Shown in pieces: positions 7,106-58,623 of a stretch of DNA of 64,000 bases. Source of the stretch: Eutreptiella sp. 'Long Island Sound 2002'. Taxonomy: Eukaryota > Euglenozoa > Euglenophyceae > Eutreptiales > Eutreptiaceae. A program made the translations under genes and the position numbers. The notes beneath the pieces were generated by a model, which made no database searches, was not told the origin of the DNA, and was given only the letters and a program-made list of their open reading frames with translations. Positions within the stretch are counted from its first letter, which is position 1, and each line of letters starts with the position of its first letter. The stretch covers positions 58,002,427 to 58,066,426 of the forward strand of contig OZ038387.1 of NCBI GenBank assembly GCA_964036045.1, written 5' to 3'.

Positions 7106-7138
<33 letters not shown>

Positions 7139-27256: not shown

Positions 27257-27304
27257 GATGGACTTGTTGTTGAGCTTTTGTTCTGCACTTCTTCTCAGGG
27301 ACTG

Positions 27305-32709: not shown

Positions 32710-32882
32710 TAGGAAGATCCCATGTGACATGGCAGTGACCTCATCGCCACATGCCCTGCCACCTCAGCACATATGGGACCCAAAACAAAGAGTGCACATC
32801 TCCTGAGATGGCACTAAGGAGAGAGAGTGACCATGGGGCAGTTTCCTCACTCTTTTCCCAAAACGTTTCAGCTATCTTTGTG

Positions 32883-32900
32883 AATATGCATTCATTTGTG
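32883..32900. repeat. 18-bp target-site duplication of LINE B, left copy
   Basis: AATATGCATTCATTTGTG here and at 58606-58623, identical. The uninterrupted G1 5' LTR has it once, near 4149-4166, followed by ACCTGAG exactly as on the right side of LINE B. Confidence 0.93.
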
Positions 32901-34479
32901 GTTTGAGGTTTGAGGTTTGATTTTGCGGTACTAGACGCCTTTCGGCCCCGGGGGGCCACCTGGTCGGGCCAGGTGATATCCTCCCCACCGGGCCCTAGTG
33001 GGGGGCCCTCCAAGACGCACCTCCTGCCTGGTGGCGGAGTCCCCCGGGTTCACAGAGCTCGGAGCCCCGTCCTTCCCCGGCGTCCCCGTTTCGCCACTCC
33101 CCGGTCAGTGCATCAATTCGCAGCCGTGGCCGCGGGCGCTTACCCACTGCGTCGCCCCCCTAATGCGTGGTCGCCCGGGGCACCGGCGCCGCCGGGCCCG
33201 TGCTACTGGCTTGTCGCCAGTGGGACCCCCTTGGGCTGGCGCGGAGGCTGCCTAGCCTAGGGGTTGGGGCGTGGCGCTGTGCGCCACTACTGCCTTGGCG
33301 GGTGCAGTGTCCCGTCTGTGTGTGCGCGGCGCTCGCGGCTGGTTCGGGGGGGTTCGGGCCGGTACCTGGTGTTGTGTCCCCCCTTCTTCCCCCTTCCCGC
33401 CCCGCGTGTTCCGCGCTGCGTGTGGCGGGCCGTCCCGTCCGGGTGTCCCTTATCCTCGCTCGCTGGTACGCCATTCCATGCGGTCTGTGCGTTCCGCGCG
33501 CTCGGTCCGGTTGCCCTTCTGGTGGTCCCCGCGTGTCCTTTTCGTGTGTGTGCGCTCGCGCTCTCGCGGTGTCCGCTCCCCGCTGGGTGGTGTGGCGCGC
33601 GCATTTCGCGTGGTCCCGGCACTGGGCGCTGGTAGGGCCGTTCCATGTGGTCCGTGCCCCTCCGCGTGTCCTGCCCCGGTCCCGTGCTTCCTCTGGCGTG
33701 CTTGGGGGGGGGCGGTCCGGTCCCGGTTCCCCCCTACTTGGCTTGGGGTTGTGGGGGCGGCGGCCGGGCGTCCCTGGGGGGGTGCCCTCGACCGTTGCGT
33801 GGGGCGTTCTGGGTCTTGCGCTCCTCTTCCCCCGACTGCCCGTCCACTAGGTGGGCTGTCGGGGTCTGCGTTGCGGGCGTGCGGTTGTGGGGGCCCGGCT
33901 CTGTTCTTGCGGGGGGGGAGAGGGGTGTCGACTTGGTGTCCAGGCGCCGGCCCGCCGGATTCCCATGACGAGCCTGATGCGCACGGAGCTTCGTCCTGCG
34001 GGTTGCGTGGGGGGGTTGGGGTGACCGTGGCTGGAGTGGTGCACCAATGCTCCGGTTCATGGCCCAGCAGAGCACCCCTACCGCGGGCTTACTCTTAGCA
34101 CAGGGGGAGGGGGTTGCGGGCGCGTGTGTTCTGCGACCCTGGTGCCAGTGTATCTCTGAAGGCAGCCACCCCGGAGGTAGCGCACCAGGCGCACGCCGTG
34201 AAGGAGCTGGTTCGAACCCCGGGATCGGTGGTCTCCCACCGATCCCTTCGAATACCGGACGAGGCCTCCCATCGACCTGTTTGAGTACAGGTGACGGTGC
34301 GCACTGCTGCAGGGGCGGGTTGCTCCCATGTGTTTTGTTTTTCTTGGGTGGGGGGTAAAACGGACGAGACCTCCACCCGATCCACCGGTATCGGTGGTGG
34401 CGCGAGTTGCTGGAGGGGGGGGTGGTTCCCACGTCGCCAACTAGAGAGCTCTACATGCAGGGATCCCAGAAGCGCCAAC

Positions 34480-34545
34480 GCCTGGGATCAAACCCCCGCA
34501 CTGGACGATTGAAGACCGACGCTCTCACTACTGGGCCGCGGGTGT
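34480..34545 (-). other. tRNA-like A and B boxes in the LINE B 3' UTR
   Basis: On the - strand CGGCCCAGTAG (34538-34528) resembles an A box. At tRNA-like spacing GGTTTGATCCC (34494-34484) resembles a B box with one mismatch, preceded by a G-rich T-stem. Anticodon pairing is poor, so this is more likely a tRNA-derived SINE remnant than a tRNA gene. Confidence 0.35.
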
Positions 34546-34810
34546 CTCTTACGCCACTTAGGGGTGTCGTCGGCTATGAATCCAGTCCTGAGGGTGGGGC
34601 TGTGCGTTGTGAAGCGTGTTGCGCGTGCCGGGAGGCCCCAGCCCACGTGCACGGGGTCGAGACAGGGGGGGAGGGGGCTGGGTGGGGTGCGTTGGATCGC
34701 CGACTGACGTGCACAGGGGTAAGAGGCGGACAGTAGCACCGCCGGGTCGCCGACTGACTGTAGGGCGGGGGGTCGTTCTGCCTCTTTCCATCCCTCTGCC
34801 TTCCCTGGGC

Positions 34811-36650
34811 AGGCAACAAAGCGGGCGTCACTGGCGTTGTGCTGTCCATGGGGGGCGTGGCCCCCCATACCTCTCCGGTTCGTGTTCACCCAGCTTCTCT
34901 GGGTACGATCTGTGCGGCGTCCCGGTGCGCAGGCGTGGGCCCGCTTGTTCTTCGCGGCCCCCATGTGGGCCGGCGGCTGGAGCGGGGGGGCGGGTCACAT
35001 TCCGGCTCCCCTCCCGGGTGGGGGGGGCCCATCCCCCTTGCCTCGGGGGGGGTGTCGCGCCGCGGCCTCCCCGCTCTCGTTCCGGGCGGCGGCCTGCGGT
35101 ACCCCTTTCTGGCCCTGTTCGCGTCGCTGGTGCGCTCCCTTCCGGCGCGCGCGTGCGGTCGGGGCTGGAGTGCCGCCCCGGGGTGGGGGGGGGTGAGGGG
35201 CGGCCCGTGGACCGCTCCCTTGGGGGTCCCAGCTGACCTATAAACCCCCCCTCTGTCCCCTCGGAGTGGACTGTGGTTACGGGAGGGTCATGCGGGGCGC
35301 GGCCTCCTTCGTGTTCCGTTGTGCGCGTTGCTCCGGCACGCCGGTGTGGGTTCGCGGGAGCAGGTCCAGCAACCGTTGCCCTTACCGTGTCGCCGTCCCT
35401 CCTGTGGGTGGGGGCGCCCCCCCGGCCCTGGGGGGGCGGAGGGCCGCGCCTGTGGCTCCCCAGCTGGGATGGGTGCGGGGGGGGGGGGGGGGGGGCGCCC
35501 CCCGCCCGCTCTCGGGTCTGTGTGGAAGGGGGGGGGGGGGGTTGGGGGGGCCTTCGGTCCCCTGGCGATGCCTCCTGTCGGCCAAAAAGGGGGGGGGGGG
35601 CGGCTTGGCGGTCCCGGCCCCAGGGGCCAGCCATCGGCCAGGGGGGTCGCGCCCTTCCCCCGCCCCCCTCTACCGAGAGCCGGATTCTCTCGCAGTCTCT
35701 CTCTGGGGCCCCTCATCCCCCGGCCGTTGTCGCGCGGCGCTGGCCGGCCGGGGGTGGCCGTGAGGGTCAGCGGTCAGTGGTTAGCGGGTTGCGGGGCAGC
35801 AGGTTTCCCCCCGCGCTTGTTGTCTCCGCACTCCCCCCCCGCGGGAGGTGGCGCGCCGCTTTCCCTGGGTAGGCAACAAAGCGGGCGTCACTGGCGTCGT
35901 GCTGTCCATGGGGGGCGTGGCCACCCATACCATTCCGGTTCGCGCCCACCCGGCTTCTCTGGGCACAATCTGCGCGGCGTCCCGGTGCGCAGGCGTGGGC
36001 CCACTCGTTCTGCGCGGCCCCCATTTGAGCCGGCGGCTCGGGCGTGGGGGCGGGTCACACTCCGGCTCCCCTCTCGGGCGGGGGGGGTCCATCCCTTCTG
36101 CCTCGGGGGGTGGGGGCCGGGGCCCCCGTGGCTGGCGGGCCGGTGGGGGGGCGGGGGGGGGGGGGTGTCGCGCCGCGGCCTCCCTGCTCTCGTTCCAGGC
36201 GGCGGCCTGTGGTACTCCTTCCTGGCTCTCTCCGTGTCGCCGGCGCGCTCCCTTCCGGCGCGCGCGTGCGGTCGGGGCTGAAGTGCCGCCCCGGGGTGGG
36301 GGGGGTGAGGGGCGGCCCGTGGACCGCCCCCCTGGGGGCCCCATCTGACTTGAAACCCTCCCTCTGTCACCTCGGAGTGGGCTGTGGTTACGGGAGGGCC
36401 ATGTGGGGCGCGGCCTCCTTCCTGCTCCGATGTGCGCGTTGCTCCGGCACGCCGGTGTGGGTTCGCGGGAGCAGGCCCAGCCGCCGTTGCCCGTATCGCG
36501 CCGCCGTTCCCCCTGAGGGGGGGGCGCCCCCCCGGCCCTGGGGGGGCGGAGGGCGTGGGGGTTAGCGGTCAGTGGTTAGCGGGTTGCGGGGCAGCAGGTT
36601 CCTCCCCGCGCTCGCTGTCTCCGCACTCCCCCCCGCGGGAGGTGGCGCGC
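34811..36650. repeat. Tandem duplication (about 1.06-1.1 kb) in the LINE B 3' UTR
   Basis: GGCAACAAAGCGGGCGTCAC occurs near 34811 and near 35873. The downstream landmarks CTGTGGTTACGGGAGGG (35270, 36384) and GTCAGTGGTTAGCGGGTTGC (35773, 36567) repeat in the same order. The second copy has an extra G-rich segment near 36110-36165 and lacks the G homopolymer block. Confidence 0.85.
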
Positions 36651-36739
36651 CCTCGCATGTCGTGCCATACCGTGGGGGGGGCGTGGGTCAGGGGGCCCAT
36701 CCCTCCCCCCCAACCCTCCCGTACCCGCCGTCTGGGCCT

Positions 36740-38678
36740 TCACTTGCGCCGCCGCTTGTGTGGGGGCTGGGGCTGCGGCGGTGGCGGGTTGTGCCGGCGG
36801 TAGCGCCAGTGGGCGAGGGCGCTACGCAAAGCCCGGGGGAGCCAGTTGTTGGCGTCCGCATCCGTGATGCGGAGCACCGCTCCCCCTTCCAGGAAGGCCG
36901 GCCACGTCGGCTCCCTGTCGGGCCACGCCGCCCGGATCACTGACCTGAGGACCCTATCGTGGTCCTCTGGGGCCGCCCACCCCCCCGGGGGTGCCTCTCG
37001 GTTTCCTCCGTCCCTCCGGAGGAGCACGGCATCGAAGGGCCGGTTCCGCGACCTCCTGGAGGTCCCCTGGTTGGCCCAGCACAACCACCCGTACACTTCC
37101 CCCACCAGGGGGAGGGTCTCCCCCCCCAGCGGGTCCGGGACTGCGCCCCAGTCCCGGTCCCATGGCCGGCTCTCCTCCGCCCCCCGTGCCGGCCCCCCTC
37201 GCTGCTCCTGCGCCTGCGGCGCCGATGCCGCGCCCCGTCCCCCCTCCGCCGAGGCCATCCGCGCCGGCTCCGCCCTCGGCGCGGGGGGGGCTTGCTGGTG
37301 CTGGTGTCGTGGGGGTTGGGGGGGGACGAGCTCGCCGGCGTCAGGGTCGATGTTGTAGAGGTGGTGGTAGTGGTGGTGGTGGTGGTGGTGGGTGTGGTGC
37401 GCCGGCATCTGTTGGATGCCGGGGGGGATGCACCTCACCGGCTGCACGTCCGGCTGCGGGGGCGCTCCGCCCTCTGACCCCCTCCCTTCGCCCCGCCCCC
37501 CTCCCTGGGCTCCCATGCCCCTTCCCTCCTGTCCCTTGGGGCCCTTGCCCTTGCCCTTGCCCTTGCCCTTGGGCCCCTTTCCAGTTCCACGCCCGTGTCG
37601 CGGGTCCCGCCTCTCGTCCCCCACGCCCTTGGCCCGCTCGCTCTCCCATCCCCCCTTGTCCTGCCCCCTGCACCTGGGTACCCTTCCCGCGCCCCTGAGC
37701 ACCCTTCCCGTGCCCTGGCCCCTCCCCGACCCCCTGCCCGTGTCGCGGGTCCCGCCCCTCGTCCACCACGCCCCGGCCCGCTCGCTCTCCCACCTCCCTT
37801 CGCCCCGCCCCCTGCACCTGGGCTCCCTGCCCGCGCCCCTGCGCACCCTTCCCGTGCCCTGACCCCTCCCCTGCCCCCTGCCTGTCGCGCCGTCCGCTGC
37901 TCCCCTTCCCCCCGCCGCTGCGCCCTTCCTGGACCACTCGCCGGGCGTCCCGCTGCCTTTGCAGTTGCGGCAGCGTGACGCCCGGCGGTGAGCGCTCGCG
38001 CTTCGGGGGGCGGTCGTGCCGCTCCCGCCCCGGGGGGAAGGGCTTGGGGGGGAACGGCTTGGGGGGGCTGGTGTGGGTGTGGGTGGGGTTGGCGTGGGCG
38101 CGGTACTTCGCGCTCTCCCTGCCCACTGCTGCTGCTGCGGCGGCCGCCGGCGAGGCGTCCGCGGCCCGTGCGGGGTTCTTCCCCCGCTTGCGCGGCGTGC
38201 TGGGGGCCGCAGCCCCTCACGCGCCCTCCTCACTCTCCTTCGCTGCCGTGGCGGCCGCCGACGAGGCGCCCGTGGCTGCGGTCGCAAACCCTCGCACGCC
38301 CTCCTCGTTCTCCTCTGCTGCCGCGGCGGCCGCCGGCGAGGCGTCCGGCTCCTGCGCCGGGGCTGCCCCCCTTGCCGGCGGCGTGCCGGGGGCCGTGGCC
38401 GGGGCCGCGGCGTGGCTCGCCGCGGTCTCCGCCTCCTGCGCGTCTGGGCGGGGCGGGGCGGCGGGGCTGGCCGCTTGGGCGGCGGGGGCGGCCGTCTCGG
38501 CTGGCCCGGGTTCCCAGGCCGGCGGCGGCGGCCCGACCGCCGCCGCCTCCGCCAGCCTCCGCTCTTCGCGCTCCGCGAGGGTCTCCCCCGTCCACTCTGG
38601 GGAGGAGACGGGGGAGCGGGAGCGGGACCGGCGGTGGTGGCGGTCGTCCCGCCCGAGGGACCCATCGGAGTCTGCCAT
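36740..38678 (-). CDS. LINE B ORF4: RS/Gly-rich protein with conserved C-terminal domain
   Basis: ATG at 38678 starts MADSDGSLGRDDRHHRRSRS, an Arg/Ser-rich head, and an Ala-rich stretch that stays open to 38217. The C-terminal half is in a neighbouring frame ending at 36740, so a frameshift or sequence error lies between. That half has a CRNC Cys pair, tandem Gly/Arg-rich units ending WESERA (about 37850-37600), a His run (about 37390-37365), and a globular region. The globular region aligns loosely with LINE A ORF4 (NRPF, PGGWAAPEDH, LPRALRSALAHWR) and ends PPHKRRRK. Probably an RNA- or DNA-binding accessory protein; no known family recognised. Confidence 0.5.
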
Positions 38679-38740
38679 CACTGCTACTCTGGTAGGCATG
38701 CGTGGTGGCAGGTGCGCCCTTCCCACTACCTCCTGGTGCA

Positions 38741-39973
38741 TCAGTGCCGTGCCGTGGGCAGTGCCGTGTGGTGCTCTGCGGGGGGGAGGGGGGGAGGGGG
38801 TGGGGGGCCGGCTGTGGCGTCAGCCCCGCACGGCCGGGGGTCCGCGGCCATCCACCGGCATTGGGAGGGGAGGCGGGGGAGCCACGCGGCCCACGCGTCG
38901 CGCCACAGCTCCCAGTCTGGGGCGGGGCTCAGGGCCCTGGGCCCCCGGGGGTCGTCGAGCGGTGTCGGGGGCAGCCGCACCAGGTGGACCCCCGTAACGG
39001 CGGTGACCTCCTGTGTGCGCAGGAAGGTGTGTACTCCGTCCCGCGCCGCGGGCGCCGGGAGGGGGGGGCGGGGTACGGGTGTGGCCCCATAGAGGTGGGT
39101 GGGGGTGATCCCCAGGATCCGCCCCGGGCCCCCGCGGGTCGCGACGACGAGGAGGAGGAGGGGGGTGCCAGGGCACTCTTGCCAGAGGACCTGTCCCCTG
39201 TGGTGGGCACCCCTGGTCCTGGAGAGGGGGGGGGACAGGTCTGGGTTAGCCCAGCCGCGGGGCGCGTGCGTCGCCGGTGGGAGGGCGGGGCACCAAGTGG
39301 GCTCCCTGGGGAACGCCTCATAGACGACGGCGTACGGGGGGGTAGGCCCGGTGCCGTCATATACCGGGTTGGTCGGCCGGGGGCGGGCGGACGCCTCGTC
39401 CACGCCTTCCACGAACACCGTGACCTCGCCCACCTCCAGGTCCTCGTCCGGCGGGTGTAGAAGGTGGAGCGCCCCATCCAGCTCGGACACTCCTCCCGGG
39501 TACGTGGCCCGCGCCTGGTTCAGGTACGGGGCCGCGTCCCCGGGGTAGCGCGTCCTGAGGGCGTGCAGCAGGGCTGGGTCGCTACTGCGGAGGGACATGG
39601 CAGACCCCGCTCCCGTCAGCCGGAGGGTGTCCCCCATGGACAGGGGCCGGCCTGACCGATTGGACTCGCGCCACTCCATCCAGTGCCCGTAGAGGGCCGC
39701 TTCCGGGCTGATGAGGCCCGGCAGGACGGCGTTCACGATCTGGTGCATTGCCGGGAGCAGCGTAGGGCCCCCCGCTCCGTTCAGGGCGCGGACGGCCGGG
39801 AGGGCGGTCTCGTTGAGGAAGGCCCTCGCATTGCTCTCCAGGTCGCACCGTGCGGCAGCGTGCGCTTCTTTTGCCTCCGCCACCGCGTCCGCCAGCAGGC
39901 CCCAGACGGCCGCCTCCTGCGCTCTGCGGCGGGCCCTGGTGTGCCCCGGCCCATCCCCCCGTCGGCGTGGCAT
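38741..39973 (-). CDS. LINE B ORF3, unknown function
   Basis: ATG at 39973 (MPRRRGDGPGHTRARRRAQE, a basic start) opens 410 codons, preceded within 40 bp by the stop of the upstream frame and followed 60 bp later by the ORF4 ATG. Composition looks globular, without long low-complexity runs until the Pro-rich last 25 residues. No catalytic motif or family is recognised. The position between the RT polyprotein and ORF4 matches LINE A ORF3, but I see no clear sequence match. Confidence 0.45.
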   Translation of the reverse strand: MPRRRGDGPGHTRARRRAQEAAVWGLLADAVAEAKEAHAAARCDLESNARAFLNETALPAVRALNGAGGPTLLPAMHQIVNAVLPGLISPEAALYGHWMEWRESNRSGRPLSMGDTLRLTGAGSAMSLRSSDPALLHALRTRYPGDAAPYLNQARATYPGGVSELDGALHLLHPPDEDLEVGEVTVFVEGVDEASARPRPTNPVYDGTGPTPPYAVVYEAFPREPTWCPALPPATHAPRGWANPDLSPPLSRTRGAHHRGQVLWQECPGTPLLLLVVATRGGPGRILGITPTHLYGATPVPRPPLPAPAARDGVHTFLRTQEVTAVTGVHLVRLPPTPLDDPRGPRALSPAPDWELWRDAWAAWLPRLPSQCRWMAADPRPCGADATAGPPPPPPLPPAEHHTALPTARH

Positions 39974-40012
39974 GGTGCTGCGGGCTCTGCAAAGGGCGGC
40001 GGCAGGTGGGGA

Positions 40013-41276
40013 TTAGGGGGCGAACACGTGCGACAGGTGCGCAACGGACGTGGGGTCCCGCACGTGCACGTGGATCCACAGAAGGGCAGCGCCCGCGGGG
40101 CCCGCTTGTTCGTGCGAGGGGGTGTGTGCCCCCTCGATGCGCCGGCGCAAGGCCTCCACCTCTGTGCGCCTGCGCGGGCCTGCGGGAGGTTCGGGCCAGG
40201 GGCACGCGGCAACCTGGGTGCACCGCGCGCACCTGTTGGCGCCTGTCGACGCTGCGGAGGACACCGTGTCACATTCTCCGCAGAGTCGGCAGGTGTGTGG
40301 CAGGTGGGAGGGCGGCGACCAAGGGTCGAGATGGCGGAGCAAGAGGCCGTCCCACCTCTGCCGGAGGGGGTCCCGGATCTCCAGCAAGCGGGCGTGGACG
40401 CGGCGCCGGTAGTCCTTGCCAAGCGTCTTCCGCTGGACTTCCCGCCACGTGTCGCCGGGGAGGATTCCGTGGTCGCGGAAGGCGGCGATGAGGTCGTCCC
40501 ACGTCGGGTGGGGGTGCCCCTGGGAAGGGCTCGCCATGTACACGTGGCGCCCGGTGAGGTGGAGCGTCAGCGCGTCCCAGTGGCACCCGTTCGCGGTGTC
40601 CCTGTGGAGGAGGGCCAGCAGGGTGCCGTCCGCGACTGCCTCCCACCCCACTCGCAGCCCTTCGCAGCCCTCTAGCTCCTGGCGCAGCGCGGCTGCGATA
40701 CCGGTGGGGAGCATGAGGAGCAAGGGCCCCTGGGTGTCGCCCAGCCGGGACAGGGCGTCGTCGTATACCGGCCCCCCAGCTTTGAAGTGCGCCACGGTGA
40801 GGTGGGTGGCCCCGTCCTCTGGGGGGTGCCACCGGACGGTGGCCGCAGCGTGTCCCCACGTGCGTATCTCCGTGGCCCGGAGCATGTTGGCGGTGTGAAG
40901 GACAATGCGGGGCGGGACGGGCGTCCTGACGAGTGAGGATACGTCCCCAGTCCATCCCGTTTGCGGCCCCGGGGCCGCCTGCAGCCATTCCCCCATCGCC
41001 GCGTCCCACGGGTGGTCAGGCCCCGCCCCGCGGATCATGGTGGGTCTCGGCCGGGTGTCCGGCCCCCACGCCCGGAGCGGGATGGCGGCGTATCGTTGCG
41101 CAGGGGTCTCCGGGGCGCGCGTGGCGGCGCACCACCGGCCCCACTCCCGCGCCCACTCCTCCCCCACGATGCGCGCCTCCCATGCGGTCATGGAGCCGCG
41201 CCCGATGATCCACGGTGGGAGGGGGGCGTCTTGTAGGTGCCTCGAGAACCCACCGGCAGGTCCTGATACGGGTGGG
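40013..41276 (-). CDS. LINE B ORF2 C-terminal extension with Cys-rich zinc module
   Basis: In the next -1 frame after the RNase H segment, joined at a run of five C (41278-41274). About 400 residues of globular sequence follow, then a Cys-rich end: CRLCGEC and NRCARC (about 40300-40215), a likely zinc-binding module comparable to the Cys pairs at the start of LINE A coding sequence. Stop at 40013. Function unknown; LINEs often end in a zinc knuckle, but the usual one lies upstream in the RNase H segment, so this would be an additional domain. Confidence 0.5.
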
Positions 41277-44035
41277 GGCTCTCTTGAAGTGGGCACTCCA
41301 GAGTGCCATTCACAACACGGAGGGAGGCTACGAAGTCCTTGTCAGGGCGCGGGGGAGGGGGAGGGTGGTCGCCCTCCGTCGCAGTGAGCCACCGGTGCGC
41401 CCGGGCCGCCGCACATAGGGGCTCGTGGAGGAGTTGCTCCAGCCGGTGGTTGCGAAGCTCCCACGCGAAGTCCCCCAGCCGGAGCATGTGGTGGAGGAAA
41501 TCGTCCACTGAGGTCCCTCCCGGCGGGTCGTATCGGGTTATGGCGCGGAGCTGCGCCTCCGCGTCCTCGGGCACCAGTCCGGAGCAGAACACCTCCGTCC
41601 ACGTGGCGCCTGCGGAGCGCCACGAGGCCACCCACAGGGCCTTGTCCCCAGGTGGGAGGTGGCGGGCCGCCTCGTGTACCGCCTGGCGGTAGTGGGGCCA
41701 GAGGAGCCGCGAGTGGGTGCAACCCACGTGCATGTGCACCGGGGTCTCTTCCGGGCCGCCGCAGAAAAGGCACGGTTGCGGGACGATGGCGACGCTGGAG
41801 AGCCGCTCCTTCTGGACGCGGAGCCTGCGCTGCACCGGCGTGTGGCCGTCTCCGGCCCGCAGCGCCCGGCGGTTGGTGGCCGCCGCGGTGAGGTCCCGGG
41901 CGTGGACGTAGGCCGTGGCGTGGGCCGCGCCCAAAGGTGTGTGTCCCCGGTGCGTCAGCGCATGGTCCGCCTGCGCCCGTTGCGCGACCTCGCCGAGCAC
42001 CCGCATCGTGGGGGGCCGTAGGTCGAGATGGCCGTCACGGCCGGCGACAATGAGTTGGGCGTGGCTAGGGTCCGGGGACGTGTTCTGCAAGACGGTGTCC
42101 TGGGACGCCGCCCAGTCCGCCTTGTGCAGTAGGGCGTCACTGTGGTGCGAGGTGGCTCGGACGTACCAGAACGGGTGCCCGGCGTGTTGCCCCCGCGCGC
42201 ACAGGCCGTCCCGGAGCCACCTCAGGGGCATCTGGTTGACCACTTCCGCTGCGCCCGCGGGGATCCCCGTGGTTCGCTCGCGATCTGCGTGCCGCAGGAG
42301 GTGGAGGATGACTTCGGCGTCCACCGTGTGGACCCTTGGTCTGTGTGCACCGTAATGTAGGGGGAGGGAGGCAGCCACCCCCTCCCCGTCGGGCACCGTG
42401 CCCGAGATGGCCACCGCCCACGTGCGGGTGAGGTCGGCGGCGTGAGCGACGCTGGTGGCGTGTTTGCAGGGTCCGCCCCCGGACGCGTCAGAGGAGGTGT
42501 GTCCCCAGGCCTCCGGGATCCAGTAGTATCCGGTGGGGCTGAGCCACCCCGCGTTGAGGTCGCTGGAGTGCCACCGGACGTCGGGGTGGCTGTGGGTCAG
42601 TTGGTCCACGCTCAGCGCCCTGGTGTCGCCTGGGCTGATCGCCGGCTGGTCGTGCAGCCGGATCTCCGCTCCGGCGACCGTGCTTGCCCAGGACCGTAGC
42701 GCCGTCACATGTTCCTTGAGCAACGCCGGGCCCCCGCGCTGGTGTACCACCAGGTGTCCTGTGTCCTCCGGACGGTCCTCCAACGCGTGCACCGCCATGT
42801 GTGGGTCGTGCGGCACCCCCGTAGCCACCAGTAGGGCGGTGCCACGGGGGAGCCCGCGGGGTTCGGGCTGGCCTGCCCCCACTTGCACTATCACCCACTC
42901 GGCCCGGCGCTGCGCTTGTCCCGTCGCTTGGGTGCATTGGTCGTCTGTGGTCACCAGCCACAACGGCGTCGGCGCGTGGGGCCGGGGGCGTAAGGGCTCT
43001 GGCCACGCAACGTCCGCGTTAGGCTCCTGGTGCTCGCTTTCCGCGAGTACGTCGCGGAGGATGTACATGAGGGCTGCCGGCGGGTGGTACGCCGCCCCCC
43101 GCGTGGGGGGGGACAGGCCGTCCCGGCGGCGGTAGCCCCCGACATGGAGATGCAGGCCGTCCGGGGTCACCCGTGGGCCGGTTTGGGCGTCCTGCTTAGC
43201 CCTCGTGGGGTGGATGAGTCTCAGGCGGGGGTCCCGTGTGCCGGTGGTGTGGAAGAGGTGTGCCAGGGCGTCGCGCCACCCGGGGTGGTTGGTGGGCTCT
43301 TGCTCACGGTGGCAATAATGGAGGTGTTCTTCGGCGCATTGGTTGAGGCACTCCCGCACCGCCGCCGGCCACGGATCGTCGTTGTCGGGGAAGGGGTGGC
43401 GTGGCCCGTGGTGCCCATGCCACGGCGTTGCGTGTGGCACCGTCAGGCGGCACGTGTCGCGGTGTCGCAGCTTGGCGGTGCGCAGCGTGACGATTTTGCC
43501 CGACGGGGACTGTAGTTGGACATGAGCCGCCCTGGGGCACGCGATGGGGTTGTACATCCCCACTCTCAGGGCGGCCAGGGCCCGGGGTATGTGGTGGACC
43601 CAGTCGCCTCCCGCCAGAGTTGCGAACTCCGGGACGGGGAAGTGCACCTCGGGGCATATTCCGTGCGCGCCGGCTATCTCCCAGAACATCCTGGTGACCT
43701 CGGCGCGCACGGAGGTTGCGCGGTGGTGGACGAGTGTACCCACGAGGGCCACCGCTGCCTGCTGGCACCGCGTGGGCACCCGTGTGAGCCCCAGGGTCCG
43801 GTCATCCTGCAGGCTGTCCCGCGAGGCGTCGAAGGCGTACCGTGCCCTGTCCTTCGCGACCTGGACCGTGATGTGGTCCAGGTGGCGTGCAGTGTCGGAG
43901 TCGTCGGCGATGAAAGGGGCGACGTACTGCGTCACCCCTCCGAGGATCGCCAGGATGACTTCCTGCACCACTTTCGGTGGCGCGAGGGTGTTAAGGCACC
44001 AGTGGTGCACTGCCGCCAGGCGTAGCCGGTGCTTG
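41277..44035 (-). CDS. LINE B ORF2: RT thumb, RNase H and CCHC-type knuckle
   Basis: Continues RT in the next -1 frame from about 44035 (PECKHRLRLAAVHHW). RNase H features are SSDASGGG near 42490 (first Asp), VDAEVILHLL near 42315 (Glu), and SHHSDALLHKADWAAS near 42145-42100 (His and last Asp). A C-terminal knuckle CLFCGGPEETPVHMHVGC lies at about 41772-41719, the C-X2-C-X8-H-X4-C form widespread in LINE ORF2 proteins. The roughly 450 residues between RT and RNase H are unassigned. Confidence 0.75.
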
Positions 44036-49700: not shown

Positions 49701-50502
49701 TGTCCTCCGCGGTCCCTGTGGGGGCGTCCTCTGGTGCCAGGTGCCACATGACGGCGAGCACCGCCCATGTGGAAAAGGGCCACGCCCGCGGGGGGGTGTA
49801 CACCTGGATGGTCCACTGTGGGCACGCCCGCCGCACGCGGGACGCGTGGAGCACCCCTCGGACCATGTCTGCCGCCAGGACCAGCACCATTCCCGAGGGA
49901 TCCACAATGATCTCCTCTGCGGGTCCACCGTGGCGGCCCCGGGTGTGCAAGGCCACTGCCGCCTGTCCCGCGTGGGTGACTCGGTCGACGGCCTCCTGGA
50001 TGTTCACGCTGCCGCGCGCGGTCTCATCCAGGATCCAGCCCTGCGTCACCCCGTAGCGTAGGGCGGCGCGTGCGGCCGCGGGTTTCACCTCGGGTAACGC
50101 TCCGTCATCGGCATCGGGCTGGGGGTGGTGTTTGGGGCACCGGCCTTCGCCGGTGCAATGGCCGCGTTTCCACGCGGGGCAGATCGCGGGTACGCTGCCC
50201 GCCGGCGGCGCAGGCTCCGCGGGCGCGTCTCCCGTGGGGGGCTCCGGCAATGCCTCCAGGTCGGAGTCTGTGCCCGCGTCCCCTTGTGGGGGGTCTCCTT
50301 CGCCGTCTCTGAGTCCCAGCGCCCTGATGACCTCGTGTGCTTCGTCCAGCGTCCGAGATCGGGGGCGTGTCTTGCGTGGTGCCGCGGGTTCCGCCATTGC
50401 TATGTCGCTGTGTCTAAGAGCAGGGGGCGGGGTGCGGATGTCCCGTGGCTGGTGCGTTGGTGCGTTGGTGCGTTGCTCGGTGTGGGGGTGGTGGATGGGC
50501 AT
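46700..50502 (-). CDS. LINE B ORF1: zinc-finger protein with possible cysteine-peptidase-like region
   Basis: ATG candidates are 50502 (created inside the last 212-bp monomer) and 50397 (MAEPAAPRKT). Numbering from 50502: a CCCH finger C108-X7-C116-X5-C122-X3-H126; a 500-residue globular region; at 659-672 NCGAVAWMAACRHL, resembling the Cys box of C19 (USP) peptidases; at 811-840 YQAIIHG, GGYRLHV and GRWTVWHSTA, resembling the C19 His box; then TQAYYM. The aligned nucleophile would be Ala664, so the fold may be inactive unless Cys660 serves. A C2H2 finger lies at 1129-1149 (C-X2-C-X12-H-X3-H). The frame runs on past the endonuclease start as GC-rich shadow. Confidence 0.65.
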
Positions 50503-53500
50503 CCCCGGGGGGGCGCCTTCCAGTGTTGCGAGGGGCGTCCGGTGTTAGGCGCTGTCCCTCTCCCGGTCGCCCGTCCTCCGGAGCGGGCAGCCAGGGTTCC
50601 GCGACCCGTGTGTCCCGGGTGCGGTCGATGCGGACGTGCGGGCCGGCCCAGCACCGGCCCACCAGCGTGCGCCCTTGCGGGCCGGCGTTGCTCGCTGTGG
50701 GGGTGGCGGAAGGGCGTCCCCGGGGGGAGTGCCTTCCACCGTTGTGGGGGGCGCCTGGTGTCAGGCGCTGTCCCTCCCCCGGTCGCTCGTCCTCCGGAGC
50801 GGGCAGCCAGGGTTCTGCGACCCGTGTGTCCCGGGTGCGGTCGATGCGGGCGTGTGGACCCAGCACCGGCCCCACAGCGTGCGCCCTTGCGGGCCGGCGT
50901 TGCTCGCTGTGGGGGTGGCGGAAGGGCGTCCCCGGGGGGGCCGCCTTCCACCGTTGTGAGGGGCGCCTGGTGTCAGGCGCTGTCCCTTCCCCGGTCGCTC
51001 GTCCTCCAGACCCCGCAGCCAGGGTTCCGCGACCCGTGTGTCCCGGGTGCGGTCGATGCGGGCATGTGGACCCAGCACCGGCCCCACAGCGTGCGCCCTT
51101 GCGGGCCGGCGTTGCTCGCTGTGGGGGTGGCGGAAGGGCGTCCCCGGGGGGGGTGCCTTCCACCGTTGTGAGGGGCGCCTGGTGTCAGGCGCTGTCCCCC
51201 CCCCGGCCGTGCTCGTCCTTCGTAGCGTGCAGCCAGGGTTCCGCGACCCGAGTGTCCCGGGCGCGGTCGATGCGGGCGTGTGGACCCAGCACCGGTCCCA
51301 CAGCGTGCGTCCTTGCCGGCCGACACTGCTCGCTGTGGGGGTGGCGGAATGGCGTCCCCGGGGGGGGTGCCTTCCAACGTTGTGAGGGGCGCCTGGTGTC
51401 AGGCGCTGTCCCTTCCCCGGCCGCTCGTCCTCCGGAGCGTGCAGCCAGGGTTCCGCGACCCGCGTGTCCCGGGTGCGGTCGATGCGGGCGTGTGGACCCA
51501 GCACCGGCCCCACAGCGTGTGTGCCCTTGCGGGCCGGCGTTGCTCGCTGTGGGGGTGGCGGAAGGGCGTCCCCGGGGGGGGCTGCCTTCCACCGTTGTGA
51601 GGGGCGCCTGGTGTCAGGCGCTGTCCCTTCCCGAGCCGCTCGTCCTCCGGAGCGTGCAGCCAGGGTTCCGCGACCCGCGTGTCCCGGGCGCGGTCGATGC
51701 GGGAGTGCGGACCCAGCACCGGCCCCACAGCGTGCGCCCTTGCGGGCCAACGCTGCTCGCTGTGGGGGTGGCGGAAGGGCGTCCCCAGGGGGGGCGCCTT
51801 CCACCGTTGTGAGGGGCGCCTGGTGTCAGGCGCTGTCCCCTCCCCGGCCGCTCGTCCCCCGGAGCGTGCAGCCAGGGTTCTGCGACCCGTGTGTTCCGGG
51901 TGCGGTCGATGCGGGCGTGTGGACCCACAACCGGCCCCACAGCGTGCGCCCTTGCGGGCCGGCGTTGCTCGCTGTGGGGGTGGCGGAAGGGCGTCCCCGG
52001 GGGGGGTGCCTTCCACCGTTGTGAGGGGCGCCTGGTGTCAGGCGCTGTCCCTCATCCGGCCGCTCGTCCTCCGGAGCGTGCAGCCAGGGTTGGGTTCCGC
52101 GACCCGCGTGTCCCGGGCGCGGTCGATGCGGGCGTGTGGACCCAGCACCGGCCTCACAGCGTGCGCCCTTGCGGGCCGGCGTTGCTCGCTGTGGGGGTGG
52201 CGGAAGGGCGTCCCCGGGGGGGGTGCCTTCCACCGTTGTGAGAAGCGCCTGGTGTCAGGCGCTGTCCCTCCCCCGGCCGCTCTTCCTCCGGAGCGTGCAG
52301 CCAGGGTTCCGCGACCCGCGTGTCCCGGGCGCGGTCGATGCGGGCGTGTGGACCCAGCACCGGCCCCACAGCGTGCGCCCTCGCGGGCCGGCGTTGCTCG
52401 CTGTGGGGGTGGCGGAGAGGCGTCCCCGGGGGGGGTGCCTTCCACCGTTGTGAGGGGCGCCTGGTGTCAGGCGCTGTCCCTCCCCCGGCCGCTCGTCCTT
52501 CGGAGCGTGCAGCCGGGGTTCTGCGACCCGTGTGTCCCGGGTGCGGTCGATGCGGGCGTGTGGGCCCAGCACCGGCCCCGCAGCGTGCGCCCTTGTGGGC
52601 CGGCGTTGCTCGCTGTGGGGGTGGCGGAAGGGCGTCCCCGGGGGGGGTGCCTTCCACCGTTGTGAGGGGCGCCCGGTGTCAGGCGCTGTCCCTTCCCCGG
52701 CCGCTCGTCCTCCGGAGCGTGCAGCCAGGGTTCCGCGACCCGTGTGTCCCGGGTGCGGTCGATGCGGGCGTGTGGACCCAGCACCGGCCCCACAGCGTGC
52801 GCCCTTGCGGGCCGGCGTTGCTCGCTGTGGGGTCGGCGGAAGGGCGTCCCCGGGGGGGGTGCCTTCCACTGTTGTGAGGGGTGCCTGGTGTCAGGCGCTG
52901 TCCCTCCCCCGGCCGCTCGTCCTCCGGAGCGTGCAGCCAGGGTTCCGCGACCCGTGTGTCCCGGGTGCGGTCGATGCGGGCCTGTGGACCCAGCACCGGC
53001 CCCACAGCGTGCGCCCTTGCGGGCCGGCGTTGCCCGCTGTGGGGGTGGCGGAAGGGCGTCCCCGGGGGGGGTGCCTTCCACCGTTGTGAGGGGCGCCTGG
53101 TGTCAGGCGCTGTACCTCCCCCGGCCGCTCGTCCTCTGGAGCGTGCAGCCAGGGTTCCGCGACACGCGTGTCCCGGGCGCGGTCGATGCGGGCGTGTGGA
53201 CCCAGCACCAGCCCCACAGCGTGCGCCCTTGCGGGCCGGCGTTGCTCGCTGTGGGGGTGGCGGAAGGGCGTCCCCGGGGGGGGTGTCTTCCACCGTTGTG
53301 AGGGGCGCCTGGTGTCAGGCGCTGTCCCTCCCCCGGCCGCTCGTCCTCCGGAGCGTGCAGCCAGGGTTCCGCGACCCGCGTGTCCCGGGTGCGGCCGATG
53401 CGGGCGTGTGGACCCAGCACCGGCCCCACAGCGTGCGCCCTTGCGGGCCGGCGTTGCTCGCTGCGGGGGTGGCGGAGGGGCGTCCCCGGGGGGGGTGCCT

Positions 53501-56500
53501 TCCACCGTTGTGAGGGGCGCCTGGTGTCAGGCGCTGTCCCTCATCCGGCCGCTCGTCCTCCGGAGCGTGCAGCCAGGGTTGGGTTCCGCGACCCGCGTGT
53601 CCCGGGCGCGGTTGATGCGGGCGTGTGGACCCAGCACCGGCCTCACAGCGTGCGCCCTTGCGGGCCGGCGTTGCTCGCTGTGGGGGTGGCGGAAGGGCGT
53701 CCCCGGGGGGGGTGCCTTCCACCGTTGTGAGAAGCGCCTGGTGTCAGGCGCTGTCCCTCCCCCGGCCGCTCGTCCTCCGGAGCGTGCAGCCAGGGTTCCG
53801 CGACCCGCGTGTCCCGGGCGCGGTCGATGCGGGCGTGTGGACCCAGCACCGGCCCCACAGCGTGCGCCCTCGCGGGCCGGCGTTGCTCGCTGTGGGGGTG
53901 GCGGAGAGGCGTCCCCGGGGGGGGTGCCTTCCACCGTTGTGAGGGGCGCCTGGTGTCAGGCGCTGTCCCTCCCCCGGCCGCTCGTCCTTCGGAGCGTGCA
54001 GCCGGGGTTCTGCGACCCGTGTGTCCCGGGTGCGGTCGATGCGGGCGTGTGGGCCCAGCACCGGCCCCGCAGCGTGCGCCCTTGTGGGCCGGCGTTGCTC
54101 GCTGTGGGGGTGGCGGAAGGGCGTCCCCGGGGGGGGTGCCTTCCACCGTTGTGAGGGGCGCCCGGTGTCAGGCGCTGTCCCTTCCCCGGCCGCTCGTCCT
54201 CCGGAGCGTGCAGCCAGGGTTCCGCGACCCGTGTGTCCCGGGTGCGGTCGATGCGGGCGTGTGGACCCAGCACCGGCCCCACAGCGTGCGCCCTTGCGGG
54301 CCGGCGTTGCTCGCTGTGGGGTCGGCGGAAGGGCGTCCCCGGGGGGGGTGCCTTCCACTGTTGTGAGGGGTGCCTGGTGTCAGGCGCTGTCCCTCCCCCG
54401 GCCGCTCGTCCTCCGGAGCGTGCAGCCAGGGTTCCGCGACCCGTGTGTCCCGGGTGCGGTCGATGCGGGCCTGTGGACCCAGCACCGGCCCCACAGCGTG
54501 CGCCCTTGCGGGCCGGCGTTGCCCGCTGTGGGGGTGGCGGAAGGGCGTCCCCGGGGGGGGTGCCTTCCACCGTTGTGAGGGGCGCCTGGTGTCAGGCGCT
54601 GTACCTCCCCCGGCCGCTCGTCCTCTGGAGCGTGCAGCCAGGGTTCCGCGACACGCGTGTCCCGGGCGCGGTCGATGCGGGCGTGTGGACCCAGCACCAG
54701 CCCCACAGCGTGCGCCCTTGCGGGCCGGCGTTGCTCGCTGTGGGGGTGGCGGAAGGGCGTCCCCGGGGGGGGTGTCTTCCACCGTTGTGAGGGGCTCCTG
54801 GTGTCAGGCGCTGTCCCTCCCCCGGCCGCTCGTCCTCCGGAGCGTGCAGCCAGGGTTCCGCGACCCGCGTGTCCCGGGTGCGGCCGATGCGGGCGTGTGG
54901 ACCCAGCACCGGCCCCACAGCGTGCGCCCTTGCGGGCCGGCGTTGCTCGCTGCGGGGGTGGCGGAGGGGCGTCCCCGGGGGGGGTGCCTTCCACCGTTGT
55001 GAGGGGCGCCTGGTGTCAGGCGCTGTCCCTCCCCCGGCCGCTCGTCCTCCGGAGCGTGCAGCCAGGGTTCCGCGACCCGTGTGTCCCGGGTGCGGTCCAT
55101 GCGGGCGTGTGGACCCAGCACCGGCCCCACAGCGTGCGCCCTTGCGGGCCGGCGTTGCTCGCTGTGGGGGTGGCGGAAGGGCGTCCCCGGGAGGGGGTGC
55201 CTTCCACCATTGTGAGGGGCGCTTGGTGTCAGGCGCTGTCCCTCCCCCGGCCGCTCGTCCTCTGGAGCGTGCAGCCAGAATTCCGCGACCCGTGTGTCCC
55301 GGGTGCGGTCGATGCGGGCGTGTGGACCCAGCACCAGCCCCACGGCGTGCGCCCTTGCGGGCCGGCGTTGCTCGCTGTGGGGGTGGCGGAGGGGCGTCCC
55401 CGGGGGGGGTGTCTTCCACCGTTGTGAGGGGCGCCTGGTGTCAGGCGCTGTCCCTCCCCCGGCCGCTCGTCCTCCGGAGCGTGCAGCCAGGGTTCCGCGA
55501 CCCGTGTGTCCCCGGTGCGGTCGATGCGGGCGTGTGGACCCGGCACCGGCCCCACAGCGTGCGCCCTTGCGGGCCAGCGTTGCTCGCTGTGGGGGTGGCG
55601 GAAGGGCGTCCCCGGGGGGGGTGCCTTCCACCGTTGTGAGGGGCGCTTGGTGTCAGGCGCTGTCCCTCCCCCGGCCGCTCGTCCTCCGGAGCGTGCAGCC
55701 AGGGTTCCGCGACCCGTGTGTCCCGGGTGCGGTCGATGCGGGCGTGTGGACCCAGCACCAGCCCCACAGCGTGCGCCCTTGCGGGCCGGCGTTGCTCGCT
55801 GTGGGGGTGGCAGAAGGGCGTCCCCGGGGGGGGTGCCTTCCACCGTTGTGAGGGGCGCTTGGTGTCAGGCGCTGTCCCTCCCCCGGCCGCTCGTCCTCCG
55901 GAGCGTGCAGCCAGGGTTCCGCGACCCGTGTGTCCCGGGTGCGGTCGATGCGGGCGTGTGGACCCAGCACCGGCCCCACAGCGTGCGCCCTTGCGGGCCG
56001 GCGTTGCTCGCTGTGGGGGTGGCGGAAGGGCGTCCCCGGGGGGGGTGCCTTCCACCGTTGTGAGGGGCGCTTGGTGTCAGGCGCTGTCCCTCCCCCGGCC
56101 GCTCGTCCTCCGGAGCGTGCAGCCAGGGTTCCGCGACCCGTGTGTCCCGGGTGCGGTCGATGCGGGCGTGTGGACCCAGCACCGGCCCCACAGCGTGCGC
56201 CCTTGCGGGCCGGCGTTGCTCGCTGTGGGGGTGGCGGAAGTGCGTCCCCGGGGGGGGCTGCCTTCCACCGTTGTGAGGGGCGCTTGGGGCCAGGCGCTGT
56301 CCCTCCCCCGGCCGCCCGTCCTCCGGAGCGTGCAGCCAGGGTTCCGCGACACGCGTGTCCCGGGCGCGGTCGGTGTGGGCGTGGGGACCCAGCACCGGCC
56401 CCACAGCGTGCGCTCTTGCGGGCCGGCGTTGCCCGCTGTGGGGGTGGCGGGAGGGCGTCCCCGGGGGGGGTGCCTTCCACCATGGTGAGGGGCGCTTGGG

Positions 56501-56540
56501 GTCAGGCGCTGTCCCTCTCCCGTCTGCCCGCCCACTGCCG
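50470..56540 (-). repeat. 212-bp tandem monomer array, about 28 copies, upstream of LINE B ORF1
   Basis: Units carry GTGTCAGGCGCTGTCCC and recur every 212 bp. The ORF1-proximal unit is degenerate (50470-50530), and the ORF1 ATG at 50502 arose in it by an ACG-to-ATG change. The array lies between the element's 5' leader and ORF1, the position of the promoter monomers of mouse L1. Long open frames on both strands across it are repeat artefacts; with a unit not divisible by three, each runs about three units. Confidence 0.93.
52020..54997. repeat. 1,489-bp higher-order duplication within the monomer array
   Basis: Seven monomers (seven times 212, plus a 5-bp insertion) at 52020-53508 are repeated at 53509-54997 almost without change. 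Private variants recur at exactly 1,489 bp: the GTTGGGTTCC insertion (52088, 53577) and GGTCGGCGGA (52831, 54320). The near-identity shows a recent block duplication. Confidence 0.9.
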
Positions 56541-58605
56541 GGTGGGTTGCCGGGGTTCGTTGGGTGTGTGCGGTGTGTGTGGTGTCTGTGCCGTGCGTGT
56601 CGTGGTGCGTGGTGCTGCTCTTCCCTTGGTCCTCCGGTGCTCCCCTCTCCGGTGTCTCGGTGCGCCGTTGTGCTCGCCGTGTGCCCTCCGTGTCCCCTCC
56701 TCTGTGTGCGCCCCTTGCTCGTTCGCTGGCTACCCCTTGTTCTCTTCGCGGCTTCGTTGCTCTTTACCCTTTCCTCTACCCCTCTCCCTGGCATGCACTT
56801 TTTCCCTGCCTCCGCTTTGTTGTGTGTCTCTGTCTTTTTCCTTGTCGGCCCGGGCTTCCTCCTTTGAACCTGCGTAGGGAGAGGAGGGAGCGTAAACGGG
56901 CGTGTGGCGGCGGCGGTTTTGTCGCGACACGGCACCTCGAGCTGGCTGGCACGCGATGCGACATGCGTGTGCGACCGGCTTGCGCGTAGGTTTATCGCCC
57001 CACTTGCGTCTTGTCTCCACTCCCCTTTGGTCGCTACCTTTACTCGTTGCCCGTTCCGCGCGCGCGGCGTGACATGCAACATACCTGCTTCTTTTCCCAC
57101 TACCTTAACGTGTCCTAGTCCTCCCGCCTTGCCGGGCGTTCGCTTATGTGTGACGACGGCACGACGCAATACTTGCCTAAGCGTCTAAGACAACCCTACT
57201 TTAACGCCCGGACGACGCAGACACGAGCATACGCTTCTCCTCGGGACCTGTGAGGGGAAGAGAACATGGGTGCGGGCACGTGTGTTTGTTGGGACCCGGC
57301 ACACGCCGGCGCTATGCTATTTGTGTGTATGCTCCCCGTGTCCCCCTCCCTTCCTCTTTGTGTGTTCTAACCCACGCAACCCCGCGGTTGGCGACGTGGC
57401 ACGACATGGTAACATACTTGCGTTCTTGGTGGCGGTGTGTGGCTTGCCTACTATTCGTTTGCATGCGGCGGCATACCTTTTGTCCCCTTTCGCTCCCTTT
57501 CGCCTCCTACATAAACGGGCGTGCGGGTGGGCGGTGGGCACGGCTCGGTTACGCTTCGTGGTCACCTTTTACTTTCGTTGGCGTGGTTGCCGTTCTCGTC
57601 TCGTGTCTGTTGCGTAGCGTAGCGTGGCATGCAACATACTTGGGCCCGACTAGTCACGTGCGTATGTTTAGTTTTTTTTTTTTTTTTTTTTTTTTGTGTT
57701 GTGCTTTACCTCGGTGGTCTTTTCGTTCCTCCTCGTTTGTCCCTTAATACCATGTTGCTCGTCCGTGGCGGTGATGGCCTTGCGGTGTTCCGGGCATGCG
57801 GGCATACCTTTCTTTCCCTATGTGAGCGGGGGTGAGCATAGGCATTCGGTGCCACCTCTTGTTAGTTTTCCTTGCCGGTGCGGTTGTCGTTGCGCTTATC
57901 GTGGCGGCGCACTTTGGCGTTGCTTGACACGTTACTTGTTTTGCGCTTGTTACGGCGTTATGCACACAAAATATGGCACATAACATACGTGCTTTCCGGC
58001 GGCCGGTGGCGTTGTTGTTGCTTGTGTGTATTTTTCATGCATGACGTGCAACATACTTGGGTACATGTGCGGCCTCTTTTTCTTTTTGTTGTGATCCCCT
58101 TCGCGTGTTACGGCGTCGTCGTTTTTCCTACATGAGTGGGCTTGCATTGTTTGGTCGTGTCCTTGTGGTATATCTCCACCGTGGTGCGGTTCGTTACCTA
58201 TTTATTCTCCTTGTCTACCTCTTTCCGCGTTGTGCTTGTTTCGTTGGTTTCTAGCGATGCGCGGCACATAACATACTTGCTTGTCGGCGGCCGGTGGCGT
58301 TGTTGTTGTCTATGTGTGGTTTGTTTTGGGGCGCGCACAAGTCCCTAGCGCCTAGGGCACGCACTTGGCTAGGTGGTTTGGGGCAAGCAACGCTCAGCTT
58401 CTTCGCCGTCGCGACTCTATTGTTCGTCTTTTTTGGTGAGTGTCCTAAATTTTGCGACCTCGCCAAACAGCGGCGTAAAATTGTTGGGGGGGTTTCTGAG
58501 GTCGGAAAAGAAGATTTTTCGCTTTATTTCTGCTGGCGGTGCGTCATTTTCTCGGTATTTCTTTTTTCTTCTGCTGCGATCGCGCGACGATCGGTCCAGT
58601 GGTCC
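56541..58605 (-). other. 5' leader of LINE B
   Basis: About 2 kb between the 5' junction and the monomer array, changing from GC-rich to moderate composition. No supported ORF. A degenerate motif AACATACTTG (+ strand) recurs near 57079, 57411, 57636, 57981, 58051 and 58269, two copies sharing a longer context with GGCGGCCGGTGGCGTTGTTG (57997, 58285). A T24 tract lies at 57672-57695. The extreme 5' end holds the inverted repeat CGATCGTCGCGCGATCG on the - strand. Confidence 0.6.
57672..57695 (+). repeat. T24 homopolymer in the LINE B leader
   Basis: Twenty-four consecutive T on the + strand, A in the element sense. It could mark an old internal poly(A) from a nested insertion, but no matching target duplication is seen. 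Confidence 0.9.
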
Positions 58606-58623
58606 AATATGCATTCATTTGTG
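58606..58623. repeat. 18-bp target-site duplication of LINE B, right copy
   Basis: Identical to 32883-32900; followed directly by the rest of the G1 3' LTR (ACCTGAGTTGCAG). Confidence 0.93.

Follow-up and report, generated by a model that had tools for sequence, protein, structure and literature searches.

Evidence for a giant APE-type LINE family in the genome of Eutreptiella sp. 'Long Island Sound 2002'

Here, we describe a 25,705-bp insert within a 64,000-nucleotide stretch of DNA (the window) from Eutreptiella sp. 'Long Island Sound 2002' (GenBank assembly GCA_964036045.1, contig OZ038387.1, positions 58,002,427 to 58,066,426), in which the coding order of a giant LINE is read on the minus strand (Table 1). 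G+C content is 66-79% at 33-57 kb of the window and ~55% in the leader, and the flanks are at ~48-54%. The 18-mer AATATGCATTCATTTGTG is found exactly three times in the 64-kb window (at 4150, 32883 and 58606; chance expectation 0.00). Positions 32350-32900 are 98.4% identical to 3617-4167 (551 bp) and positions 58606-58862 are 99.6% identical to 4150-4406 (257 bp), so that the empty site is preserved in the upstream LTR of a Gypsy element, and 25,705 bp interrupt its downstream LTR where the 18-mer is duplicated. An initial annotation, made from the sequence alone, had proposed a perfect 18-bp duplication flanking 32901-58605 and had taken the intact paired LTR for the empty site; the exact 18-mer at both junctions bears out the former, and the two LTR alignments the latter. 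The host site is the 3' LTR of the Gypsy element, and the giant LINE arrived after that element's own insertion.

Table 1. Features of the giant LINE copy and its insertion site, in window coordinates.
Feature	Position	Strand	Remarks
Same 18 bp without insertion, paired LTR (empty site)	4150..4167		18-mer and LTR alignment
Target-site duplication, 3'-end side	32883..32900		Exact 18-mer
3' tail, TCAAACC repeats	32901..32921	-	Common 3' end of scored copies
3' UTR	32901..36739	-	Internal ~1.06-kb tandem duplication (34798-35444 / 35858-36554, 83%)
ORF5, rich in Ser/Arg and Pro; broken frame in window copy	36740..38678	-	Follows ORF4 in P0031 and P0104; coding inferred
ORF4	38741..39973	-	410 aa, open in window copy
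ORF2	40013..46690	-	~2,230 aa in relatives (P0001/P0002); start inferred from P0001
ORF1	46703..50397	-	1231 aa in relatives (P0145 and others)
5' array, 212-bp monomers	50470..56522	-	28.5 units, 94% alike
5' leader, degenerate short repeats	56523..58588	-	Repeat scan; common to scored (over 57500-58588) and tiled copies
Private 17 nt, 5' junction (filler or private start)	58589..58605	-	Not common to other copies
Target-site duplication, 5'-end side	58606..58623		Exact 18-mer

No Pfam domain was detected in ORF1, in which the motifs CX7CX5CX3H near the N-terminus and CX2C...HX3H near the C-terminus were read by eye, and the window copy has one frame break near the C-terminus. ORF2 matches Pfam RVT_1 (E 3.7e-23) and, upstream of this reverse transcriptase (RT), Exo_endo_phos (APE; E 7.9e-08), and also holds a CCHC motif (weak zf-RVT match) followed by a C-terminal extension. 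APE and RT lie in one frame in P0001 and P0002; in the window copy this frame is broken, with three breaks in ORF2 compared with relatives that have a single open frame. The best solved relatives of the RT are 8gh6 (named reverse transcriptase-like protein, 6.1e-17), which we take to be R2Bm, and R2 proteins and L1 ORF2p (~1e-12). RNase H was found in ORF2 neither by Pfam (E up to 0.5) nor by hhalign against four comparison proteins; a D-E-D-D-like spacing was seen by eye. The predicted structure of the C-terminal part carries no confidence (mean pLDDT 30.8). ORF2 is in the same frame as ORF1, with one UGA stop between them, and predicted proteins of other copies join the array edge to ORF1 (P0148) and ORF1 to ORF2 (P0177, P0193).

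Open relatives form clusters represented by P0145 for ORF1 (439 member sequences), P0002 for ORF2 (438) and P0025 for ORF4 (358), in a protein database that may include the same genome, so that these counts cannot be taken as evidence separate from the genome search described below. Six peptide patterns of P0002 found no relative in the databases viral_contigs and genome_contigs. dN/dS is below 1 in 20 of 21 pairs for ORF1 and in all 21 pairs for ORF2. Since the relatives carry ORF2 in one frame, the first of "two more ORFs" that the initial annotation placed after ORF2 (a separate "ORF3" at 41341-40013) is rejected as the ORF2 C-terminus; what stands of that claim is ORF4 and probably ORF5. 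The proposed one-strand LINE order holds on the minus strand from leader to 3' tail, with RNase H undetected and the ORF count corrected.

The extra genes are thus the 410-aa ORF4 and, probably, the Ser/Arg/Pro-rich ORF5. That 3' transduction brought in these two ORFs and the long UTRs as passengers dispensable to the element is unlikely. Such a reading is favored by ORF4 dN/dS values of 0.76, 0.82 and 1.53 in three copies, which show no clear constraint, and by a protein without a known Pfam domain or a confident predicted fold (mean pLDDT 33.5). It is opposed by 641 related ORF4 clusters, with a length of exactly 410 aa in 30 of the 42 best-ranked (83-96% identity), although open-frame lists favor survivors, and by predicted proteins from other copies in which ORF4 adjoins ORF2 (P0083) and ORF5 (P0031, P0104). 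A homology between ORF5 and the final ORF of element B (8430-10160) is not claimed, the score being matched or exceeded in 24 of 1000 shuffles, and in 141 of 1000 without the tail; no homology was detected between the long ORF of element B and ORF4 or ORF2.

No direct repeat of at least 14 bp joins the two ends of the giant LINE, i.e. it has no LTRs, and none gives evidence of an internal target duplication in the window copy. Direct repeats of this size, scanned with the array left out, are local tandem duplications, isolated 14-15-mers and short leader motifs. Zero or one further TCAAACC unit is present in the tails of 15 copies, the window copy included. Folding of the 3'-terminal 120 nt is not clearly more stable than that of shuffled sequences (z -1.08), no Rfam family reaches its gathering score within the window, and the dinoflagellate spliced leader is absent from the window; the 5' end of the giant LINE has no spliced leader.

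Other copies were searched for in the 2.28-Gb host genome. The spliced leader of this genome points to a Euglena or a near relative as host; a homeodomain search gave one match, which was uninformative on this point. Ends were scored for the best 40 of 3781 3'-end candidates and the best 40 of 2188 5'-end candidates. All 39 other best-scored 3' matches stop within 7 bp of 32901, and 35 of the 39 other best-scored 5' matches stop at 58584-58596. In 14 of 14 other copies, the aligned 5' start falls at element base 13-31. This puts the family 5' end at ~58588 and leaves 17 nt at the 5' junction that belong to the window copy alone. The 25.7-kb unit of the initial annotation stands as a single mobile unit (the 25,705-bp insert), with its family 5' end moved from 58605 to this position.

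Both ends are present on the same strand, 22.9-29.5 kb apart, at 12 of 17 other loci examined, a proportion that is not a genome-wide rate, the loci (six tiled, plus four and seven ends-only pairs) being drawn from best-scoring matches and the set of seven chosen because the ends were already paired. Four of the six tiled copies (23.9, 26.8, 27.4 and 27.6 kb), which stand for three insertions, run without a break from one end to the other, and three of the four and five of the seven ends-only pairs have both ends at this spacing (eight copies, with interiors unread). The copy on C17, whose 3' end lies outside the tile read, was not counted as full-length, and the pairings C1_180.2 (36.0 kb) and C18_1.36 (35.1 kb) were rejected as full-length copies, neither having a duplication.

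Full-length copies outside contig C18 are located on C1 (two), C2, C4, C5, C9, C10 (the window), C14 and C15, with differing flanks. Four of the 12 other copies lie on C18 (15.6-18.3 Mb) with identical flanks inside a CACCCGAACGCC minisatellite, and sharing these flanks they are counted as one insertion that was amplified, giving ten independent full-length insertions with the window copy. Nine of the ten have exact duplications of 9-19 nt, and the tenth (C18) lies inside a tandem repeat. In all nine, the duplicated words are offset by -1 to +2 from the 3' end, and 190 cross-pairs gave at most 8 nt. The duplications of the C4 copy (9 nt, 37 nt from the 5' start) and the C15 copy (10 nt) are each weak alone. 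Other full-length copies with the same ends and duplications of their own, the check named in the initial annotation, are thus present. The amplified C18 insertion speaks for a spread of the copies largely through segmental duplication or amplification as satellites rather than retrotransposition, but this is highly unlikely given non-C18 copies on several contigs with different flanks and their own duplications, and 5'-truncated copies with the same 3' end. Among 20 other 3' ends without a known 5' partner, six remain collinear at -7 kb and five at -16 kb, and first-look candidates increase towards the 3' end (leader 2188, ORF4 2670, 3' end 3781). In P0072 a Gypsy pol runs into the ORF4 frame at about residue 48, as expected of a truncated insertion.

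Length varies among copies mainly in the 212-bp array, which holds 20-38 monomers in seven copies; in the window copy a seven-monomer segment (51842-53542) is repeated at +1489 bp with 12 mismatches in 1701. This recent duplication, the tandem duplication in the 3' UTR, and the C20 and C2_64.5 copies, which are truly interrupted by other sequence, are the observations that favor a LINE of ~8-10 kb that inserted and was later enlarged by nested insertions, by expansion of the array and by duplication within the 3' UTR. This is nevertheless extremely improbable: the same inner order runs end to end on other chromosomes (four copies, three insertions), further copies have their two ends 22.9-29.5 kb apart, the four end-to-end copies also carry the 3'-UTR duplication, and by arithmetic the unit would still be close to 20 kb with the array cut to one monomer. 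Nested growth or a composite origin is rejected by the other full-length copies, and growth after insertion, which the initial annotation had offered as one of two explanations of the size, is excluded save for part of the monomer array. Given the recurring ends, the independent duplications and the copies unbroken from end to end, 32901-58588 is very probably one copy of a giant APE-type LINE family, retrotransposed as a unit.

In the mechanism that we propose, a 23-29-kb RNA would be transcribed from the leader or monomer region and coated by ORF1 protein, and ORF2 would be made by stop read-through or by re-initiation after the UGA. The APE domain would nick the target, and target-primed reverse transcription would begin at the TCAAACC tail of the RNA, the RT often halting early and sometimes reaching the 5' end, with the possible addition of a few nucleotides there. 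Both ORF4 and ORF5 would be accessory genes, and array length may be changed by unequal exchange or RT slippage. A high RT processivity, the other explanation of the size offered by the initial annotation, is implied, judging from sequence.

LINEs are usually shorter than 10 kb, a limit often ascribed to the processivity of the RT and the length of the RNA. Independent insertions of 23-29 kb indicate that target-primed reverse transcription can complete such units in nature, and the giant LINE offers a natural RT in which processivity could be tested. On balance, we slightly favor the wider view that this is the longest APE-type LINE family yet recognized as a genuine mobile unit, that its RT carries target-primed synthesis through more than 25 kb, which one or two downstream accessory genes may serve, and that the same host has a second LINE family, retrotransposed with a trans-spliced leader at its 5' end, the giant one having none. 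If true, a single trans-splicing organism would have two routes for LINE RNA. A limited literature search, which is not proof of absence, found no giant LINE. The giant family also suggests that the LINEs of euglenids have been incompletely described: the published annotation of E. gracilis gives 1.49% of the genome as LINEs and 32.73% as unclassified (PMC11252322).

The giant LINE resembles APE-type, L1-like LINEs in its ORF1 followed by an APE-RT ORF2, variable-length target duplications, 5' truncation and fixed 3' end. Mouse L1 also has 5' tandem monomers, and human and mouse L1 are ~6-7.5 kb long, whereas the giant LINE measures 23-29 kb, has a leader 5' of the monomers, a ~2,230-aa ORF2 extended at its C-terminus, followed downstream by ORF4 and probably ORF5, and a TCAAACC tail in place of poly(A); its RT matches 8gh6 slightly better than L1. 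Terminons, giant Penelope-like elements of bdelloid rotifers of up to 40 kb, likewise combine an RT with accessory ORFs, have simple repeats at their termini and include many 5'-truncated copies; they are described as EN-deficient and telomere-attached (PMC6431247). As in Terminons, extra genes are carried, here by a LINE; unlike them, the giant LINE has an APE domain and inserts inside chromosomes with target duplications, and a Penelope-like or Terminon identity is rejected on the presence of APE and of insertions with target duplications inside contigs. The LINEs of trypanosomatids are reported to produce unspliced transcripts from a Pr77 5' promoter (PMC8190864); they share with the giant LINE a non-LTR nature and a host within Euglenozoa, the giant LINE likewise having no spliced leader at its 5' end, and they differ from it in size and gene content.

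The 18-mer AATATGCATTCATTTGTG occurs at just three places in the window: 4150, 32883 and 58606. The last two sites confirm the perfect 18-bp target duplication that the initial annotation had placed around a 25.7-kb block, here called the giant LINE (minus strand). The LTR at 3617-4406 aligned to 32350-32900 (98.4%) and to 58606-58862 (99.6%), so 25,705 bp interrupt the second LTR of the Gypsy element G1 at the 18-mer; the first LTR, intact, is the empty site, as had also been proposed. The two G1 LTRs differ at ~1.2% of positions; the Gypsy element came first and the giant LINE later. Other elements lie in the same window. Element B (6417-13174, minus strand), a second insertion, interrupts G1 gag between duplicated flanks of ~129 bp (6288-6416 / 13175-13304, 97.7%). 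One end is a simple repeat (GATACCTACCTAC...), and its ORFs are long, the two that were scanned giving no Pfam domain; it may represent the 3' portion of a further large LINE. An array of 38 copies of a 65-bp unit (1-3057, plus strand) shares its 3' terminal sequence with element B. The stretch at 16742-28027, nested in G1 pol, is probably a Gypsy element (minus strand) with ~711-bp LTRs (98.7% alike), and holds a ~160-bp LTR piece (21343-21503) within its own pol.

Searches of the 2.28-Gb assembly (2205 contigs; window at C10:58002427-58066426) yielded 2188 candidates for the 5' leader, 2670 for ORF4 and 3781 for the 3' end, counts that come from a loose first pass and do not represent copy numbers, though they climb towards the 3' end. 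The best 40 candidates for each query were scored, and these are the nearest relatives of the window copy. Among them, 35 of 39 non-self 5' rows stop at window 58584-58596, the remaining four ending 6-44 bases short of 58584, and all 39 non-self 3' rows stop at 32894-32900. Six other copies were tiled across 30 kb each, and four are unbroken from element base 15-18 to 25705; the C20 copy is broken by a 12,207-bp insertion that has a 16-bp duplication, the C2_64.5 copy by Gypsy-like sequence. For eleven further loci the ends alone were retrieved, first four and then seven selected for ends already pairing in the match lists; for C17, in the group of four, the 3' end lay outside the tile. Two of the seven, C1_180.2 and C18_1.36, were not counted: their ends lie 35-36 kb apart and no duplication flanks them. 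In total, 12 of 17 other loci have both ends at a spacing of 22.9-29.5 kb.

Giant-LINE copies with both ends, and longest exact word common to both flanks
Locus	Length (kb)	Retrieval	Shared word (nt)
Window	25.7		18
C18_18.3	27.6	tiled, contiguous	
C1_17.2	26.8	tiled, contiguous	16
C18_17.36	27.4	tiled, contiguous	
C15	23.9	tiled, contiguous	10
C4	23.8	ends only, group of four	9
C14	24.0	ends only, group of four	11
C9	23.7	ends only, group of four	13
C1_192.9	28.95	ends only, group of seven	18
C5	22.9	ends only, group of seven	12
C2_32.4	24.5	ends only, group of seven	19
C18_16.7	29.5	ends only, group of seven	
C18_15.6	29.3	ends only, group of seven	

All nine shared words lie at the 3' end with an offset of -1 to +2, and no more than 8 nt are shared in 190 cross-pairs between loci (excluding C18 with C18). 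The gap between shared word and aligned 5' start is -3 to 37 nt, one such gap being the 17 nt at 58589-58605, private to the window copy; the C14 and C9 copies begin 10-13 bases further in. The host assembly (G000) carries a cluster of giant-LINE matches on C18 at ~15.6-19.6 Mb. The four C18 copies examined at both ends have common flanks within a CACCCGAACGCC minisatellite, which suggests one insertion amplified locally; its flanks, being tandem repeat, do not allow a target duplication to be judged. Full-length copies with the same ends and their own target duplications, by which the initial annotation would have its LINE checked, do exist: the other loci amount to nine independent insertions, and the window copy makes ten, of which nine have an exact duplication. 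Copies carry 20-38 of the 212-bp monomers (seven copies), which accounts for most of the variation in length between the copies read, and a 7-monomer segment repeated in the window array with 12 mismatches in 1701 bp indicates that the array does change. Twenty further 3' ends without a known 5' partner were sampled, a selection that favours truncated copies; six still match the element in collinear order at -7 kb, five at -16 kb (one additional match at each distance falls in a different element part), a test in which interruption by other elements gives the same picture as truncation. In the predicted protein P0072, Gypsy pol continues into ORF4 sequence, with the ORF4 frame from ~residue 48.

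The protein database may include the same genome, so its member counts do not constitute evidence separate from the genome search. In relatives ORF1 is 1231 aa long (P0145, 439 member sequences). P0015, an ORF2 relative at 37% identity (1283 member sequences), represents a second LINE family, perhaps from this genome or from a related one. ORF2 (~2,230 aa, pieced together from P0002 and the P0001 N-terminus) contains Exo_endo_phos, RVT_1 and a zf-RVT match below cut-off, followed by a C-terminal extension. In the window copy the ORF2 frame is broken at three points, and that of ORF1 at one, near its end. ORF1 and ORF2 share one frame, separated by a single UGA (46703-46705) whose position is a sense codon in predicted proteins P0177 and P0193; the arrangement suggests read-through or re-initiation. 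ORF4 (410 aa) is open in the window copy and has 641 related clusters (120 listed), with exactly 410 aa in 30 of the best 42 (83-96% identity) and columns averaging 79% identity in an alignment of 40 sequences. ORF5, Ser/Arg- and Pro-rich, comes after ORF4 in P0031 and P0104 and is frame-broken in the window copy. Across seven copies, dN/dS is 0.30-0.78 in 20 of 21 pairs for ORF1, the exception being a near-identical C18 pair (1.07 from four changes), and 0.46-0.76 in 21/21 pairs for ORF2; a small test of three pairs showed no constraint on ORF4 (0.76, 0.82, 1.53).

The giant LINE has its ends, target duplications, truncations, APE and RT in plain view, and may be copied through a single long RNA, an ORF1 particle and target-primed reverse transcription starting at the TCAAACC tail, with premature stops presumably frequent. 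A 26-nt spliced leader is given for Euglena gracilis in PMC6242988. It is absent from the window at ≤3 mismatches and is not the giant-LINE 5' end, so the retrotransposed RNA was probably not trans-spliced. The insertion in the C20 copy is itself a LINE (tiles L024:1456-10000 and L025:1-3662, minus strand) in which RVT_1 and RNase H were detected, and its 5' end reads two bases and then the complete 26-nt Euglena spliced leader. Judged by this leader, the host is most likely a Euglena or a near relative. Among the best 40 of 1178 candidates scored for that 5' end, 37 of 39 other matches begin within query 51-62 (the leader lies at 61), the other two at 209; judged by these starts, this family was apparently copied from trans-spliced RNA.

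Excerpts of a giant-transposon review (PMC6431247) use 'non-LTR' once, about transduction, and describe Terminons, giant Penelope-like elements of up to 40 kb. No LINE of this size was found in the part of the literature that was searched. By every defining feature that could be tested, the giant LINE is an APE-type LINE. It is several times the usual LINE length, and is distinct from usual APE-type LINEs in this greater length and in one or two added genes.
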